Below, piece after piece: positions 2,943-21,855 of a stretch of DNA of 21,855 nt. Both the position numbers and the translations under genes were made by a program. The first letter of the stretch is position 1. Each line of letters begins with the position of its first letter. Under the pieces are notes generated by a model that saw nothing but the letters and a program-made list of their open reading frames with translations, had not been told where the DNA came from and searched no databases. This DNA comes from a virus: IMG/VR virus record IMGVR_UViG_3300030333_000644, positions 1 to 21,855 of that record; one strand, written 5' to 3'.

Positions 2943-5147
2943 GTGGCAGCAGGTTATGACGTAAATCTGAATATAGCTCTTAAAAATTCTAATAAGTTAA
3001 TGCAACTCCGTAAGGAGTTGAAAGCAGCTGGAGAAGCTCAAGTTAGATTTAACAAAGCAGCTAGTGAAGGTAATGGAATAGCAGTTGCTACATTTAATAA
3101 ATTAAATAAACAACTTTCAAGAGCAAAGGGGTTATTAAACAAGGCTGCATATGGTACGGACAGTTTTAAAAGAGCAGCAAGGGCATTAGTAAATGTAGAA
3201 AAAGAACATAATCATCAATTAAAAGAAAAAGAAAAGTTATTAAATAAGTTGAGAATGGAATCAGATCCTCTGTTTCAACTTAAGCAACAAAGAAAACAAC
3301 AGATCAAAGAAAATATACGTCAAAATAGAGCACTTAGGTTTACAAATGTTAACCCTGGTCGTCCTGCTGTTGTCGGAGATTATGGGCAAGCTGGAGGAAG
3401 AGTTGGCCCTGCACAAATATTAAATAATTCGCAAGGAGGATTTTTAGCTTTTAGTAAAGTTGCTGATAAAATTGCTGATGGTGTGAAAGCAAACGTAAAG
3501 CAAACCACAAAAACAGCACAGGTATTAACTCAACAAGCAACTAGGTCTAATTTTGAAGCAATTTCAAATCAGTTTGGAGTGCAAGGTGGAAGAATAGGAC
3601 CACAACAAGCACCATTTTTTAACAGAATGGGTTTTGGTAGAAATGCAAAATCCACTGGTCCATTTGCTATGCCTGGTGGTGCAGCAGGTAGATTAAAAGG
3701 TGGTGTTGGTAGTGCATTGATTGGTGGTGGTTTTCCTTTCTTATTTGGAGCTGGCGGTCTTAGTGCAATCATGGGTGGTGCTGCAGGTGCAATCGGTGGA
3801 GCATTAGCACCAGGTGGGGGTTTTGCTCTTTCTATCGCTGCTACTGCTGTCGCTGCTCAAATTGAAGATGCAATAAAGTTTAGAAAAGAATTAAAATTAG
3901 TAAATAATCAATTATTGGCTGTTGGTAGCACTGCAAATTTTTCAAGACAAGAAGTAAAGGAGTTAGCTAAACAATTTAATATAACCAAAGAGGAAGCGAC
4001 ACAATTAATAGATAGTTTTGTTCCTCGATTTGAAAACGAACTAGATGTAAATGCTTTATTAGATGTTTTTGGTAAAGATGGACTAAAGGTGTTTGACGCA
4101 GTTTCTGGTGCGACTGACAATCAAAAATTAATAAATGAAATAGTAAAAGCTAGAGATATTATTGGACAGACAAAAGCAGATGAATTATTAGCAGATTTAA
4201 AAACTGAAACAAGTCTTGAAGTTCAACTAAGGTTAACAAGAGAAATTGCAAAAGCTAATAGAAATATAGTTTTACAGGATTTAGAACTTAATCGAAAAAT
4301 TGGAGGTAAACGATATGAAAATGTTGTTAATGAAAATTTCGATGCCTTTATAAATCAACTTGATCCGAATAGTGACTTAGCGAAGTTGTTGCAAGAGAAT
4401 CTTAGGAAAGACCTTTCTGATATAAAAACTTATCAAGAACTTGCAAGAAGCTATGGTCCTGGTGGTGGTACTTTTAGATTTTCAGAAGAGGTTGAAGAAA
4501 TATTCCGTAGAGACTTTTATAATTTCTTAAATCCTCTTGATGAAGCTGTTGACAGATCACAAAAACTTGTTGAGTTTGCTAGAGAATACGCTCTTCAATT
4601 ACAAGAGTTTGAAGAATTTAAAGCACCTGTAGATGAAATAGAAAGATTATCAAGAGCAACACGGGTCGTTCTTGATGTAAGTAAAGAATTGAAAACAAGT
4701 TTTGCAGAATCCTTTAAAGGAATTGTTAAGGGAACAATGACAGTTACCGATGCCTTTAGAAATATGTTGAACAGGATTGGCGATTACTTCTTGGATCTCG
4801 CTGCACAAGTTATGGCTGCTGGTATTCAAAAATCTTTCTTAGGCTTGTTTCAAAATATGTTTAATGTTCAGATGCCATCTCCTATGGCAGAAGGAGGGCG
4901 AGTTACTGGTGGTAGGCCATATATAGTTGGAGAACGAGGGCCAGAATTATTTAGTCCAGGAGTAAGTGGCAATATTACACCGAATCATGCTTTAGGTGGA
5001 TCAACAAATATCGTAGTAAATGTAGATGCTTCTGGTTCTAACGTAGAAGGAGATGAAGATAGAGGAAAAGAACTTGGTCGTCTTATATCAGTTGCAGTAC
5101 AATCTGAAATAATACAACAACAAAGGCCAGGAGGATTACTTGCATAA
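2943..5147 (+). CDS. Tail tape measure protein
   Basis: A 734-residue protein starting at GTG 2943, directly after the chaperone frames as in lambda (G, T, H). Residues about 15-130 are charged and heptad-like, a probable coiled coil. Residues about 248-307 are a glycine/alanine-rich hydrophobic segment able to insert in a membrane. Residues about 580-645 form an amphipathic region (FKGIVKGTMTVTDAFRNML onward) like the C-terminal domain of lambda-type tape measures. Residues 648-680 carry the AEGG-x-x-x-GG-x-x-x-VGE-x-GPE motif common near tape measure C-termini. Two similar short stretches, AGGRVGPAQ and QGGRIGPQQ, lie about 65 residues apart. The protein sets tail length and probably forms or guides the DNA channel. 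Its stop overlaps the next start (TAATG). Confidence 0.9.
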   Translation: MAAGYDVNLNIALKNSNKLMQLRKELKAAGEAQVRFNKAASEGNGIAVATFNKLNKQLSRAKGLLNKAAYGTDSFKRAARALVNVEKEHNHQLKEKEKLLNKLRMESDPLFQLKQQRKQQIKENIRQNRALRFTNVNPGRPAVVGDYGQAGGRVGPAQILNNSQGGFLAFSKVADKIADGVKANVKQTTKTAQVLTQQATRSNFEAISNQFGVQGGRIGPQQAPFFNRMGFGRNAKSTGPFAMPGGAAGRLKGGVGSALIGGGFPFLFGAGGLSAIMGGAAGAIGGALAPGGGFALSIAATAVAAQIEDAIKFRKELKLVNNQLLAVGSTANFSRQEVKELAKQFNITKEEATQLIDSFVPRFENELDVNALLDVFGKDGLKVFDAVSGATDNQKLINEIVKARDIIGQTKADELLADLKTETSLEVQLRLTREIAKANRNIVLQDLELNRKIGGKRYENVVNENFDAFINQLDPNSDLAKLLQENLRKDLSDIKTYQELARSYGPGGGTFRFSEEVEEIFRRDFYNFLNPLDEAVDRSQKLVEFAREYALQLQEFEEFKAPVDEIERLSRATRVVLDVSKELKTSFAESFKGIVKGTMTVTDAFRNMLNRIGDYFLDLAAQVMAAGIQKSFLGLFQNMFNVQMPSPMAEGGRVTGGRPYIVGERGPELFSPGVSGNITPNHALGGSTNIVVNVDASGSNVEGDEDRGKELGRLISVAVQSEIIQQQRPGGLLA

Positions 5148-5500
5148 TGGCTACGTTTCCCTCAATAAAACCTAAATATGGGCAGCAGAAAAGATCCGCA
5201 CCATTAACTCGTACGATTCGCTTTGCTGATGGTTATGAACATAGACTTTTATTTGGTTTAGCACAACATCAGAATCCAAAAGTTTTTAATCTTACTTTTG
5301 AAGTTTCAGAAACAGATGCGGATACCATAGAAACTTTTTTAGATGCTCGTGCCAATGACAGTGATAGTTTTACCTTTACTCCTCCAGGAGAAAGTTCTTC
5401 TTCTGAATTTGTTTGCGAAGGGTGGAGTAAATCTATACCATTTAATAACAGGGCTACAATTCAAGCTACTTTTAGACAAGTATTTGAACCAACTTCCTAA
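5147..5500 (+). CDS. Minor tail protein (lambda M-like)
   Basis: A 117-residue protein matching the phage minor tail M family by its layout: a basic N-terminus with P-x-YG (KPKYGQQKRS), an RTIRFADGYEHR strand (residues about 22-33), a central LTFEVSETDADTIETFLDAR helix-strand region and a final FTFTPPGE ... FVCEGWS segment. In lambda gpM is added near the tail tip during initiator assembly and helps join the tip to the tube. One-base overlaps link it to the tape measure gene before and the L-like gene after, the same order as in lambda. Confidence 0.8.
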   Translation: MATFPSIKPKYGQQKRSAPLTRTIRFADGYEHRLLFGLAQHQNPKVFNLTFEVSETDADTIETFLDARANDSDSFTFTPPGESSSSEFVCEGWSKSIPFNNRATIQATFRQVFEPTS

Positions 5501-18216: not shown

Positions 18217-18438
18217 ATGTTTCAAAAAATTGCTAACGTCTTAAGCATTGTTTCTTTTCTTATGGTAGCTTCCATGAGTGGTGGAGCGTACATAGGCTAC
18301 AAATATGTAACATCCGAGAATTTCAAGTCTCAAGTTATGAATGAAATTTTAGGAAATGTACAGGGTTCTATGCCTAAAGTATTAGATAATGTAATGCCTC
18401 AAGCAACAGGGCCATCTATACCATTTATTAAAAAGTGA
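18217..18438 (+). CDS. Small single-pass membrane protein, cyanophage type
   Basis: A 73-residue protein with a clear N-terminal membrane segment (residues about 5-30: IANVLSIVSFLMVASMSGGA onward) followed by a hydrophilic part ending PQATGPSIPFIKK. The N-terminal sequence closely resembles a small conserved protein of marine cyanophages, which I recall but cannot check here. The segment lacks a cleavage site, so it should stay anchored in the inner membrane. Its stop overlaps the GTG start of the next membrane protein (GTGA at 18435-18438), so the two are probably made in a fixed ratio and may work as a pair. Function unknown; a role in lysis or virion structure is possible. Confidence 0.65.
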   Translation: MFQKIANVLSIVSFLMVASMSGGAYIGYKYVTSENFKSQVMNEILGNVQGSMPKVLDNVMPQATGPSIPFIKK

Positions 18439-19073
18439 GTGAAATACCTCGTTTTAAAATAAACGAGATTCAAATACACAGAGTGCCGATATGGAGTGAT
18501 CACACTCCAATTATTAATCAAATAAATAAACCTATTGTAAATATCCCTGGTTGTGTAAGAGTTCATAGAAATAATTTAACTAGCCTTATTGATAACCCTA
18601 AAGATGAATATGGAACATATACAGAATGTGGTAACTTCAGTATTCCTAGTTTTGAACCTTTGGATTATACCCCCAACGAATTTAAGTATGTTCAATCAGA
18701 AACCCCCAATCAGACAGAAGAGTTTGTACCGCCAACAGTAGAACCACCAAAATACGAACCAAAGAAAGAAGAAGACAAGCCTCTTTTTGTTGAATGTCCT
18801 GGGCCAAATGACCAAAGAGTAGGCCAATATGCTTCAGAGTTTAAATTGGAGCGTGTTATAGGACACGAAAGAAGCGAAGATGGTAGTGAATGTATAACTC
18901 TTTATGAAGACGTTAAATTCATCGAGCAATACATACCGAATCCTCCACAGCTTGTTAGCACTGCTGCTATTGCTACTGTTGCTGCCACTACTCCATTATT
19001 GCTTAATATTGTCAAACCTCTCATAAAAAATCTATTTAAAAAACTTACAAAGAAAAAAGATAAGGTAAAATAA
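18435..19073 (+). CDS. C-terminally anchored membrane protein, cyanophage type
   Basis: A 212-residue protein starting at GTG 18435 in the stop codon of the upstream gene. Residues 1-100 hold strands with two cysteines (IPGCVRVH, YTECGNFSIP); residues about 95-118 are rich in P, E and K (a flexible linker); a second small domain (VECPGPNDQRVGQYASEF onward) follows; residues about 171-194 are a hydrophobic segment (QLVSTAAIATVAATTPLLLN) and the tail is very lysine-rich. This suggests a tail-anchored protein with the lysine tail in the cytoplasm, or a virion protein with a membrane-active end. The PN-P-P-QLV-T-A-A-x-A-T-VAAT segment recalls a conserved marine cyanophage protein. Function is not known. 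Confidence 0.62.
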   Translation: MSEIPRFKINEIQIHRVPIWSDHTPIINQINKPIVNIPGCVRVHRNNLTSLIDNPKDEYGTYTECGNFSIPSFEPLDYTPNEFKYVQSETPNQTEEFVPPTVEPPKYEPKKEEDKPLFVECPGPNDQRVGQYASEFKLERVIGHERSEDGSECITLYEDVKFIEQYIPNPPQLVSTAAIATVAATTPLLLNIVKPLIKNLFKKLTKKKDKVK

Positions 19074-19105
19074 AAATACCCTATTCGCCACGGCAATGGA
19101 TAGGG
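19067..19105 (-). terminator. Intrinsic terminator of the minus-strand cassette
   Basis: Read on the minus strand, CCCTAT and ATAGGG (19105-19100 and 19084-19079) form a six-pair stem with an additional CCA/TGG inside. It is followed by a T-rich tract (19077-19068). It lies about 35 bases past the stop codon at 19137 and overlaps the end of the plus-strand gene. Confidence 0.62.
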
Positions 19106-19112
19106 CGTCTAG

Positions 19113-19152
19113 GTGGGCAAGTTTAACCGTGCTTGCCTACTGCCCAATTTTT
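19113..19152 (+). terminator. Possible terminator of the plus-strand late operon
   Basis: GTGGGCAAG at 19113-19121 pairs with CTTGCCTAC at 19132-19140 (nine pairs, one G-T) with a ten-base loop. The TGGGCA/TGCCCA pair (19114-19119, 19141-19146) offers an alternative longer stem that would place the T-run at 19148-19152 right after it. It sits between convergent genes. The T-run is short and separated from the main stem, so termination on the plus strand is less certain. Confidence 0.42.
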
Positions 19153-19922
19153 AGTTCGTGAGTGTGCGGTATAACTTGATTAGGTTTTGGAGCAATACGA
19201 ACCCCGTCACATAATTTTGCGTATTCACTTTTAGGATCAAAGTATATTCCAGCCAACATTAACTCTCCACAATTTTTTAATCGGGCTATTTCATAGTTGA
19301 GCATCTTTGCATTTAGTTCCTGTTTTTGTAGTTTTATTTGGGTATTTGCAGCGTCTAAACAAGAATCTTGAAATCTGTTATCTAGCGGAATATTAAATGT
19401 AAACGCAAATCCAAAGTTAAGTCCAAGAGAATCCTTGTTACCACTATAGTTTTCTTGATAGTAAAGTATATTACCTGGATTATCTGGCACGTTATCATTA
19501 TTGGCATCTGTGTTGTCGTACACGGGCGTATGATAAATGTAATCTTGTGGCCTTCTTTGATTAAATGTGGTAGTTATAAAAGGAGTAAATCCCATCTGTG
19601 GGCCAGAACAAACTATTCCATTTCCATACTGATTTTCTACCATTGGGCCACCTAATACCTGAGTGGCAAAGTTAGATACTGAAGATGAGGATTGAGCTAC
19701 GGGTGCTGCTGTATTTGAGGTATTAGCAAATACAGGATTACTTATAAGACTTATTGCGAGAAGATAGTTGTGGTATCTGTGACGCTTGTGCTTTCTATGG
19801 TTCGGGTTATATCGGTTACGGATTCTAAACCAGGTGCTTGATAAACTTCTGTAAATTGAAAGGCATCTCCCTGAGTTGTTTGAGTCCAGTTTGGTCTTTG
19901 ATTTAGGTCTAATCCCTGCCAT
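19137..19922 (-). CDS. Secreted protein without a canonical start codon near its signal peptide
   Basis: The frame runs to TAG at 19137. The first ATG is at 19922, but residues 1-50 from it merely overlap the upstream gene and are arginine/asparagine-rich. The real protein probably begins near 19770: a signal-like stretch LLAISLISNPVFA (19763-19725) with an A-N cleavage site is followed by a mature part of about 195 residues with an S/A-rich start, an IVCSGPQMGFTPFITTTFNQ segment, an acidic NTDANNDNVPDNPGN loop, an LGLNFGFAFTFNIPLD strand region and a helix with cysteines (CLDAAN ... LKNCGEL ... AKLCDGV). Between 19919 and 19763 there is no ATG, GTG or TTG in frame; the next is ATG 19643. It resembles the third member of a secreted trio in marine cyanophages. 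The start is unresolved. Confidence 0.6.
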   Translation of the reverse strand: MAGIRPKSKTKLDSNNSGRCLSIYRSLSSTWFRIRNRYNPNHRKHKRHRYHNYLLAISLISNPVFANTSNTAAPVAQSSSSVSNFATQVLGGPMVENQYGNGIVCSGPQMGFTPFITTTFNQRRPQDYIYHTPVYDNTDANNDNVPDNPGNILYYQENYSGNKDSLGLNFGFAFTFNIPLDNRFQDSCLDAANTQIKLQKQELNAKMLNYEIARLKNCGELMLAGIYFDPKSEYAKLCDGVRIAPKPNQVIPHTHELKIGQ

Positions 19923-20176
19923 GTATGAGTAGTTCCGTTTATAGTTTCGTTAACAGTGGTAGCTGCTGGAGATATAGAAGATCCGTCATGTTGTATTCCT
20001 GATCCTGTAACTGAATACAAGAACCCAGAATTATATTCTGTTGTTCGTATAGACTCTGTAATAATTGTGGAAGTTTCTGTTCTACTTGTGGAACTGCCCT
20101 GAGTGAAATTAGGTATAACTGGCACAGCGTAACAAGGAGCAGATATAACAAAGCCAAGAAGAAATAGCCTCCTCAT
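19751..20176 (-). CDS. Secreted protein with Sec signal peptide (paralogue of its neighbour)
   Basis: A 141-residue protein with a textbook signal peptide: MRR, then LFLLGFVIS, then APCYA with cleavage before V18. The mature part is rich in T and S, with YSVTGSGIQHDGSSISPAAT in the middle and TQTTQGDAFQFTEVYQAPGL (residues about 97-116), which aligns with ATQATSGEAFSFAQSYVEG in the upstream protein, so the two are probably paralogues. The start codon overlaps the upstream stop (ATGA at 20173-20176 on the minus strand). It should be exported to the periplasm or beyond. I recall similar proteins from marine cyanophages, none with a known function. Confidence 0.68.
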   Translation of the reverse strand: MRRLFLLGFVISAPCYAVPVIPNFTQGSSTSRTETSTIITESIRTTEYNSGFLYSVTGSGIQHDGSSISPAATTVNETINGTTHTWQGLDLNQRPNWTQTTQGDAFQFTEVYQAPGLESVTDITRTIESTSVTDTTTIFSQ

Positions 20177-20658
20177 TCGATAGTAAGATCAACGACAAAC
20201 TGACCTGTTATTACGATACCCGTTCCTGTTCCTGGTGTCATTGTAATATTGTGATTGTCTATTGCCACTGCTGCTGTGCCCACGCTTCCAGCACTTGTAC
20301 TGGTAAGGTCTGAAAAATTTGGCACAGTACCTACTGTAACTGCACTACCTGGTGTAGCATCTCCTTCCACATAGGATTGTGCGAAACTGAACGCTTCACC
20401 ACTGGTTGCTTGAGTTGCAGAAGGGAATGAAATACTAGGAACTCCATTAGTTGCAGAACCAAAGCCACCGATAGTAGCTGCCGAGTTAGAGTCTACAGTT
20501 GTAACATTATTACCGCTTATGCTATATGACGACCCAATCTTATCTGCTGTACTTGCTGCCGACAAAGATTCAAATTTTACAGATGAACTGATACTGTGAT
20601 TCATGTCCGCATAGGCTGGTGCGGAAACTAGAAATAAAAATGGAATGAGTTTTTTCAT
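20173..20658 (-). CDS. Secreted protein with Sec signal peptide
   Basis: A 161-residue protein with a clear signal peptide (MKKLIPFLFLVSAPAYA, cleavage before D18). The mature chain is small-residue rich and acidic, mostly strands, with a SSYSISGNNVTTVDSNSAAT segment, an ATQATSGEAFSFAQSYVEG segment shared in pattern with the next gene, and a final hydrophobic strand ITGQFVVDLTIE. It has no cysteines and no second membrane segment, so it should be released into the periplasm or outside. It starts inside the stop codon of the holin-like gene (ATGA, minus strand), implying one co-translated operon. A role at lysis, in superinfection control or on the virion is possible; none is shown. Confidence 0.68.
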   Translation of the reverse strand: MKKLIPFLFLVSAPAYADMNHSISSSVKFESLSAASTADKIGSSYSISGNNVTTVDSNSAATIGGFGSATNGVPSISFPSATQATSGEAFSFAQSYVEGDATPGSAVTVGTVPNFSDLTSTSAGSVGTAAVAIDNHNITMTPGTGTGIVITGQFVVDLTIE

Positions 20659-21059
20659 TGTTTTGGTTTTTTGGAATCGACTATTTCTGCTCCAATAATT
20701 TTTATTGGTGTTTCAATTCTAACTGTCTGGTATCCACCCGATTGTGACGCTAGTAACGCTTCTACTTCTTTCTTGTTTAATGGTTTATCTTCTGGCTTAT
20801 ATGTTCCATCTCCTCTTTTCTTTGCACCTTCAAGCCCAAAACTGGCTAACGCACCAGTTAGCAGAGAAGCTGGAAAAGTTATATCTTTTGGTTCGTTGCT
20901 ATATCCTGGGATTGAAATGTAGTTTAGAGAAACTATAAACCCACTCCAAGCAACAACAACAAGCCTTACTACAACCGAAATAAAAGCTAACTGCTCTTCT
21001 TTATCTGTAATGTTTTCCTTCAGTTTTTGAAGTGGACCTTTTTTCTCCTGTTCTGCCAT
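20655..21059 (-). CDS. Holin-like two-helix membrane protein
   Basis: A 134-residue protein, first gene of the minus-strand operon. A charged N-terminus (MAEQEKKGPLQKLKENITDK) precedes a membrane segment at about 24-48 (LAFISVVVRLVVVAWSGFIV) and a second, shorter one at about 61-78 (FPASLLTGALASFGLEGA). A charged hydrophilic tail follows. Two close membrane helices, small size, charged ends and position next to exported proteins fit a class II-type holin or holin-associated membrane protein; I recall similar proteins in marine cyanophages annotated as holin-like. No endolysin is adjacent in the window. The divergent start faces the plus-strand gene at 21125 across 65 bases. An alternative is a membrane protein for superinfection exclusion. 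Confidence 0.55.
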   Translation of the reverse strand: MAEQEKKGPLQKLKENITDKEEQLAFISVVVRLVVVAWSGFIVSLNYISIPGYSNEPKDITFPASLLTGALASFGLEGAKKRGDGTYKPEDKPLNKKEVEALLASQSGGYQTVRIETPIKIIGAEIVDSKKPKQ

Positions 21060-21124: not shown

Positions 21125-21301
21125 ATGGTAAAAATTCTAAAACCTATTCTTTTAGTCTTTATTAAATCAAAAGCAATGAAGAGATTGATTGTTGATTTGT
21201 TAAAAGCATTAGCTAAACAAACAGATAATACGATAGATGATCAAGCAGTAAGTTTTATTGAATCTAGGCTATATCCTGGATCAACTACAAATCTTCAATG
21301 A
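21125..21301 (+). CDS. Small amphipathic-helix protein, unknown function
   Basis: A 58-residue protein from ATG 21125 to TGA 21299-21301. The N-terminal half is hydrophobic and basic (KILKPILLVFIKSKAMKRLI, then VDLLKALAKQTDN), a pattern that suggests an amphipathic helix able to sit on a membrane; the C-terminal half is acidic (TIDDQAVSFIESRLYPG). The K-P-I-LL ... SKA ... LL-K-x-x-A-x-x-TDNT-x-DD pattern matches small conserved proteins that I remember from marine cyanophages near their structural or lysis genes. It is followed one base after the stop by the next start, so the two should be co-translated. Function unknown. Confidence 0.6.
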   Translation: MVKILKPILLVFIKSKAMKRLIVDLLKALAKQTDNTIDDQAVSFIESRLYPGSTTNLQ

Positions 21302-21302
21302 T

Positions 21303-21632
21303 ATGAAAGACACTTTTTTTCAAATCATCTTTGAATCTCCTCCAGCTGAAGTTGAACTTTCTACAGAATTAAAATGTAGAGAAGTAATGAAATCTAATGA
21401 TACAGATAAGATAAAAGCATTTTGTTGTGACCTTATAAGAAATCAAGCAAAAATGGATACTGTGCTTGCATCTTCATTGGCACGATTAGCTGAACAAGAG
21501 TCAAGAAAAATGATTGAAGAAAAGATAGTAAAAGCGAAAGGTATAAATAAATTACTATTTCTTTTCCATCAATTTATGGTTATGAAACAAGTAGAGAAAA
21601 TTATGAAAGCAAGCCGTCCTCAAAATCCTTAA
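21303..21632 (+). CDS. Helical protein of unknown function
   Basis: A 109-residue protein from ATG 21303. The frame could be extended to a TTG at 21258, but that would overlap the preceding gene by 44 bases, while ATG 21303 lies one base past its stop. It is mainly helical and charged: an FFQIIFES start, a STELKCREVMKSNDTDKIKA segment, three cysteines (two adjacent, in FCCDLIRNQ), a LASSLARLAEQESRKMIEEK helix and a hydrophobic-basic LLFLFHQFMVMKQVEKIMKA helix near the end. No family is recognised. Its last 32 bases overlap the end of the minus-strand gene that converges on it. Confidence 0.6.
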   Translation: MKDTFFQIIFESPPAEVELSTELKCREVMKSNDTDKIKAFCCDLIRNQAKMDTVLASSLARLAEQESRKMIEEKIVKAKGINKLLFLFHQFMVMKQVEKIMKASRPQNP

Positions 21633-21855
21633 GTTCTTGTTCTGAAAAATCCTCTTCACGCATACATAAGACTTCACATATCAAAGCGTTGTGCTTTACA
21701 ACAGCAGTTCTAATAAATTCTGTAACCCATTTACCGTTAGTTATAAGTTGTGCTTTTCGATTACCGTCAATAAAAACATAATGATCGTAACCTCTTAAAT
21801 CTTGATCTATTAATTTTTTTTCTAAGTTTGATATTCTATTTAATTTTAAAGTTTT
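21601..21855 (-). CDS. Unknown protein, C-terminal part (runs off the window)
   Basis: On the minus strand a frame is open from the window edge (21855) to TAA at 21603-21601, giving 84 residues without a start codon at the edge. It reads LEKKLIDQDLRGYDHYVFID, then RKAQLITNGKWVTEFIRTAV, then a cysteine-bearing ICEVLCMREEDFSEQELKDF stretch. Strands followed by an acidic helix suggest a small folded domain; no family is recognised. The absence of stops over 84 codons in this AT-rich DNA and the ordinary amino-acid make-up support a real gene. It converges on and overlaps by 32 bases the plus-strand gene at 21303-21632. Confidence 0.6.
   Translation of the reverse strand, partial: KTLKLNRISNLEKKLIDQDLRGYDHYVFIDGNRKAQLITNGKWVTEFIRTAVVKHNALICEVLCMREEDFSEQELKDFEDGLLS

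Follow-up and report, generated by a model that had tools for sequence, protein, structure and literature searches.

A 21,855-nt virus record fragment (GC 36%; hereafter the window) carries a co-inherited cassette of genes for Sec-exported and membrane proteins, and we give an even chance to the reading that this cassette is a lipoprotein-free lysis module specific to marine picocyanobacterial phages, doing the job of spanins and holin. In such a module, ORF1 would permeabilise the inner membrane in the manner of a class II holin, and the Sec pathway would export ORF3, its paralogue ORF2, and ORF4 into the periplasm. The convergently encoded GC234 would be anchored in the inner membrane, its N-domain periplasmic and its C-terminal tail inside, and would assemble with the exported proteins into a complex able to break or fuse the outer membrane, replacing the spanin pair without any lipoprotein. 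The initial annotation had proposed an envelope-directed module in which a holin-like protein acts with exported ones in place of a holin-endolysin-spanin set; this proposal is the best supported, since the genes are inherited together, they take the place of the T7 holin in cyanopodoviruses, and published work finds no spanins in these phages, although lysis and superinfection exclusion are inseparable by sequence alone.

Gene layout and encoded proteins

The window carries siphovirus-type tail genes on the plus strand and a minus-strand operon of four genes (Table 1). The operon had been recognised earlier, and its gene positions and the ATGA junctions (4-nt overlaps) of ORF1/ORF2 and ORF2/ORF3 are as described, but the third junction had been missed: ORF4 begins inside ORF3, out of frame (-1), with a 172-nt overlap. 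The trio of exported proteins with a holin-like gene is likewise real, but the unit extends beyond ORF1-ORF4 to convergent plus-strand genes (18217-19073), including the overlooked partner GC234. Pfam and PHROGs assigned ORF1 and ORF3 to DUF families and the remaining genes to families without known function. The operon had been said to run opposite to all other late genes, which holds leftward and fails at the right end, where a minus-strand frame is open over 21601-21855. As this frame continues past that end, the cassette may form the distal portion of a transcription unit running leftward, and the same could be true in the siphovirus MED4-117. Between the convergent genes (19076-19106), CCCTAT...ATAGGG followed by TATTTTTATTTT resembles a terminator hairpin with a loop too long for our scan; the scan for promoters and terminators gave no excess over shuffles.

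Table 1. Coordinates of the cassette genes and adjoining features in the window
Feature	Position	Strand	Family	Properties
ORF1	20655..21059	-	DUF6450 / phrog_2714 / T4-GC218	134 aa; Pfam PF20048, E 1.6e-21
ORF2	20173..20658	-	phrog_564 / T4-GC237	Sec-exported; ORF3 paralogue
ORF3	19751..20176	-	DUF6322 / phrog_650 / T4-GC236	Sec-exported; Pfam E 3.7e-34
ORF4	19137..19922	-	phrog_848 / T4-GC235 ("gp165")	Mature part 19140-19724
ORF3 3' end / ORF4 start	19751..19922	-		Dual-coding overlap; ORF4 in -1 frame
Convergent partner (GC234)	18435..19073	+	phrog_570 / T4-GC234	
Small protein	18217..18438	+	phrog_568 / T4-GC414	One N-terminal hydrophobic segment; label "plasmid stability"
58-aa protein	21125..21301	+	phrog_2738	Basic, amphipathic; cassette membership uncertain

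The two-helix holin-like protein noticed earlier on the minus strand was recovered as ORF1, which has two hydrophobic segments, K-rich ends and the invariant residues W38, Y47, D59, F62, A64 and G75 (alignment A5). Its predicted holin-like topology (N-in, C-in) is that of class II holins, which are small proteins with two TMDs, and the record of its P-SSP7 homologue notes 2 TMHMM helices. ORF1 gave no significant sequence match to the T7 holin 17.5, and Pfam yielded its DUF alone. In GC234, a Pro-rich N-domain containing 4 Cys precedes a single C-terminal hydrophobic segment, and the tail is very basic (alignment A3). Charge asymmetry around the hydrophobic segment was found in all 16 homologues, counting the divergent counterparts that podoviruses carry (16/16), and by the positive-inside rule these flanking charges predict an N-out/C-in topology.

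The signal-peptide-like segments reported for the three other frames recur among their homologues. A hydrophobic core and an AxA site were present in 44/44 ORF2 homologues, the ORF3 homologues had a core in 85/92 and an AxA site in 74/92, and 336/336 ORF4 loci had an AxA-type site just past the point where ORF3 stops. Lipoboxes were found in 0/336 ORF4, 0/44 ORF2 and 2/97 ORF3 sequences. A duplication had been suspected from a pattern common to the first two exported proteins, which we found in ORF2 (SYSISGNNV...TQATSGEAFSFAQSY) and ORF3 (LYSVTGSGI...TQTTQGDAFQFTEVY); profile-profile comparison made the paralogy significant (hhalign, probability 96.5%, E 9e-10, over an alignment that takes in the signal peptides), and the ORF3 profile cross-matched ORF2 in S-SSM7, P-HS2 and S-RSM4. 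We did not find ORF2 in the podoviral (T7-like) cassettes examined, which would fit duplication of ORF3 at a later stage. The composition of ORF3 is Thr-rich, and its C-terminus reads [IV]F[SGTQ]Q in nearly all of the 336 loci. A likeness of podoviral ORF3 to PraA/PraB was rejected as weak and limited to a few members; P-SSP7 gene 044 (38376-38738), for instance, matched the NCBIfam PraA/PraB model at E 1.5e-4, weakly and far below the cut-off.

Structure prediction with AlphaFold2 gave an all-beta ORF3 with two very long strands of 23-24 residues (pLDDT 80, pTM 0.42) and an ORF4 with eight strands followed by a 42-residue helix (pLDDT 65, pTM 0.29). The profile searches and structure predictions suggested in the initial annotation thus bore out the paralogy and left the ORF3 and ORF4 folds unmatched, as neither protein had a significant sequence or fold match in the PDB. 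The significant viral matches of ORF3 included named cyanophage proteins and several entries without a name, none with an annotated function. The beta-rich models would suit an outer-membrane conduit, formed by the exported proteins with ORF4, that alters nutrient or metabolite traffic during a long infection of a nutrient-poor cell, and pstS or phoA lies close to the cassette in some T4-like phages. We consider this quite unlikely: no channel fold reached significance in Foldseek (lowest E 0.95 for ORF4 and 0.018 for ORF3), the strand alternation of ORF4 did not exceed that of shuffled sequences, and nutrient genes are not constant neighbours. Two further ideas were dropped. For ORF3, a pore-forming fold of aerolysin type, drawn from its two long strands and Foldseek neighbours, met lysenin and other pores only at E of at least 0.099 and low TM-scores. 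For ORF4, a TolC/OEP-like or barrel strand, suggested by a sequence pattern, was set aside because there was no OEP match among 74 members scanned at E up to 10, and on the same shuffling result and the model scores given above.

Overlapping coding of ORF3 and ORF4

ORF4 consists of a basic N-extension of ~50 aa, a signal peptide encoded across the ORF3 3' end, and a secreted domain, with invariant cysteines at C39, C122, C152 and C172 (alignment A1). Its start ATG lies at 19922-19920, and the gene is in the -1 frame relative to ORF3 in 334/336 loci. We compared unique sequences from four groups of relatives (window, T4-like, MED4-117 and podoviral) with an expectation from synonymous shuffling of ORF3 codons. 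The ORF4 frame was open over the overlap in 64/64 window, 79/80 T4-like, 65/65 MED4-117 and 60/60 podoviral sequences, where shuffling gave 1.6%, 8.2%, 3.8% and 30%, respectively; within-group relatives are not independent, and these percentages are no p-values. The open frame was combined with an ATG at a constant position in 64/64 window (expected 1.0%), 72/80 T4-like (2.7%) and 64/65 MED4-117 (3.1%) sequences. In the podoviral group, the ATG stood at its modal position in 33/60, which makes the start codon less certain there. Stops closed the frame upstream of the ATG no less often than expected in three of the four groups, and an SD-like core preceded the ATG in 51% of cases (17% background). 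These comparisons indicate that the overlap is under selection, and the fixed ATG, the frame kept open only from it and the SD-like cores place the ORF4 start inside ORF3. Fusion of ORF3 and ORF4 by a -1 frameshift was rejected because the open frame is conserved only from the ATG; the upstream stops and the universal cleavage site favour internal initiation.

The N-extension of the window, T4-like and MED4-117 groups measures about 45-56 residues and is basic and weakly constrained in sequence. Synonymous diversity was lowered among podoviral (0.47 vs 0.73) and T4-like (0.74 vs 0.82) sequences and was not reduced in the window or MED4 groups, on which ground a strong amino-acid constraint on the N-extension was rejected. 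With a reduction in only two of the four groups, the openness of the frame and its start are conserved more than the sequence itself. The phage P-SCSP2 departs from the common arrangement, with an inverted cassette (4278-5363), ORF4 in the +1 frame and a short ordinary signal peptide. No proper gene is annotated at ORF4 in several GenBank cyanophage records, S-RSM4, S-MS29 and S-SCSM1 among them. Such missed or misplaced annotation is probably due to the start inside ORF3.

Distribution among marine cyanophages

Similar trios in marine cyanophages, mentioned in the initial annotation, do exist: our tblastn searches matched 436 phage records for ORF4, 412 for ORF3 and 409 for ORF2, essentially all of them phages of marine Synechococcus or Prochlorococcus. 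When ORF1, ORF3 and ORF4 were sought together in 24 complete genomes, all three were present in 16, covering T4-like, T7-like and siphoviral phages, and none in the other 8 (T7, Syn5, S-PM2, P60, P-SS2, S-CBS4, Ma-LMM01 and HTVC010P). Comparison of gene neighbourhoods showed the same cassette in the three phage types, and the cassette follows host group, not tail type. In T4-like phages, ORF1 lies on the other strand, about 2-3 kb off, yet is co-inherited. GC234 was present in 12/13 genome-contig loci holding ORF4; these genome-collection matches (n = 13) carry the phage cassette and resemble phage contigs in single-cell or metagenome assemblies. One such contig (L341, 5806 onward), from a single-cell assembly labelled Alphaproteobacteria, has a cassette whose ORF4 is 85% identical to that of the window, pointing to either a co-sorted cyanophage or an alphaproteobacterial host. 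Both the all-or-none inheritance of ORF1, ORF3 and ORF4, with GC234 alongside, and the recurrence of one cassette across the three phage types favour the lysis reading.

The gene clustering has a precedent in T4-like phages. Sullivan et al. 2010 (PMC3037559) described T4-GCs 218, 219, 234, 235 and 237 as a cluster of hypotheticals, thought to be functionally linked, in all cyanomyoviruses examined save S-PM2. The S-SM1 annotation ties T4-GC numbers to the window genes, and linked homologues of GC218 (ORF1), GC237 (ORF2), GC236 (ORF3), GC235 (ORF4) and the partner GC234, plus GC414, are present in the window; GC219 was not seen there. Known in that work from T4-like phages, the cassette is found here also in siphoviruses and T7-like phages, and the export signals, selected overlap, ORF2/ORF3 paralogy and proposed function are added. 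Among the flanking genes, phrog_568 / T4-GC414 is a frequent neighbour. The phrog_2738 58-aa protein adjoins the cassette in several cyanopodoviruses (also at 16666-16836 of L356), but its membership is uncertain because Syn5 has a similar protein (gp48) and no cassette.

In siphoviruses and podoviruses, the cassette adjoins tail-fibre genes, and ORF3, with its Thr content and long strands, is fibre-module-like and has a weak, non-significant Foldseek likeness to phage tail/collar proteins. ORF2-ORF4 could on these grounds be particle components or fibre attachments with incidental N-terminal hydrophobic stretches, but we regard this as very unlikely. Tailed-phage virion proteins assemble in the cytoplasm, whereas ORF2-ORF4 have cleavable Sec-type signals, universally so at the ORF4 loci; moreover, there was no significant sequence match to any solved PDB chain, and the exported genes are always linked to two membrane proteins.

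The main rival to lysis is superinfection exclusion or envelope remodelling, to which we assign a low probability. Here the exported proteins would cover or modify the cell's outer surface or its periplasm and block injection by a second phage, with ORF1 and GC234 as inner-membrane anchors. Three Sec-exported proteins and inner-membrane proteins fit this role, and the cassette behaves as an independent unit, often inverted (siphoviruses, most T4-like phages and P-SCSP2), as accessory modules often are. It also shares its strand with recombination/early-type genes in MED4-117 and lies near early/middle-type genes (regA, clamp-loader and polymerase genes) in T4-like phages. The strand in MED4-117 and the T4-like neighbourhood make early expression possible, which counts against lysis; for siphoviruses and myoviruses we infer late timing. 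Characterised exclusion genes usually come as one or two genes with a patchy distribution, whereas a set of at least four components is kept here across three phage types, and P-SSP7 holds the cassette in its late region, between fibre and terminase genes.

Relation to the T7 lysis region and spanins

The order in T7 is fibre, holin 17.5, small terminase, overlapping spanins 18.5/18.7 and large terminase, and that in P-SSP7 is fibre genes, 042, 043, 044, 045, 046 and small terminase. Gene 042 encodes one TM, 043 two TM with DUF6450, 044 an ORF3 with signal peptide, and 045 ORF4. The cassette of P-SSP7 therefore occupies the T7 lysis region, in the slot of holin 17.5, which favours the lysis reading. 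Shared with T7 are this position of a two-TM protein next to fibre/terminase genes, two envelope proteins whose genes overlap in the -1 frame (as 18.5/18.7), and a long basic out-of-frame N-region before the signal (as in 18.7). Moreover, when the C-termini of 56 T7 and 58 P-SSP7 proteins were compared (3,248 pairs), the best pair was the T7 o-spanin 18.7 (TTEMLNVFSQ) with P-SSP7 044 (TTTSLSVFSQ), identical at 7/10 positions. V[FL]SQ is the C-terminus of most T7-like o-spanins, ORF3 homologues share a VFSQ-type end, and the C-termini are conserved within both families. This likeness, noticed after the fact, also favours lysis, as a lead and no proof of homology. In contrast to the T7 lysis genes, the cassette has no lipoprotein, type II i-spanin or overall sequence similarity, and it has four or five components with a C-terminally anchored partner.

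Spanins are absent from these phages according to Kongari et al., whose "spanin-less" list includes many cassette carriers, and the predicted form of GC234 is the one they named; both points favour lysis. ORF3 and ORF4 overlap in different frames; genes overlapped or embedded in this way are common though not universal among spanins, and this selected overlap of two envelope proteins points the same way. Like lambda Rz/Rz1, the cassette has genes that overlap, a partner rich in proline, cysteines in its exported portions and a long predicted helix, but it carries cleavable signals where Rz/Rz1 relies on an N-terminal TMD and a lipid anchor. The lipobox counts yield no outer-membrane lipoprotein, and the cassette contains no type II inner-membrane subunit (N-terminal TMD with periplasmic coiled coil), as the predicted helix of ORF4 follows a universal cleavage site and the hydrophobic segment of GC234 is C-terminal. 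That neither spanin type was found weakens the lysis reading, as does the fact that no endolysin was identified in or beside the cassette and that ORF1 has no detectable similarity to the T7 holin. Five marine cyanophages on the spanin-less list (Syn5, S-PM2, P60, P-SS2 and S-CBS4) are cassette-free, which also weakens it; the cassette is thus not required for exit from these hosts and is one exit solution, not the sole one. More tentatively, at clearly less than even odds in our judgement, Prochlorococcus and Synechococcus phages of unrelated tail types may have in common a spanin substitute that uses no lipoprotein, made up of the overlapping-frame Sec-exported pair and an inner-membrane partner of inverted topology; such a way of disrupting the outer membrane would be previously undescribed.

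The gene families and their clustering were previously known, and the literature searched contained no mention of DUF6450 or DUF6322. As far as that literature shows, what is added here is the occurrence across morphotypes, the selection on the overlap, the argument from the T7 slot and the connection with missing spanins. ORF4 illustrates how a gene start inside another gene can be missed or misplaced in several records. Cyanophage engineering for deletions exists (PMC8776855). The hosts are the ocean's most abundant photosynthetic bacteria and main primary producers, and their phages are without recognised spanins; one conjecture in print is that they can do without them because the outer membrane is fragile (PMC6139136). 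The exported proteins described here, encoded in one conserved and jointly inherited cassette, offer a concrete alternative to that guess, and a candidate role for several hypothetical families in >400 sequenced phage records.
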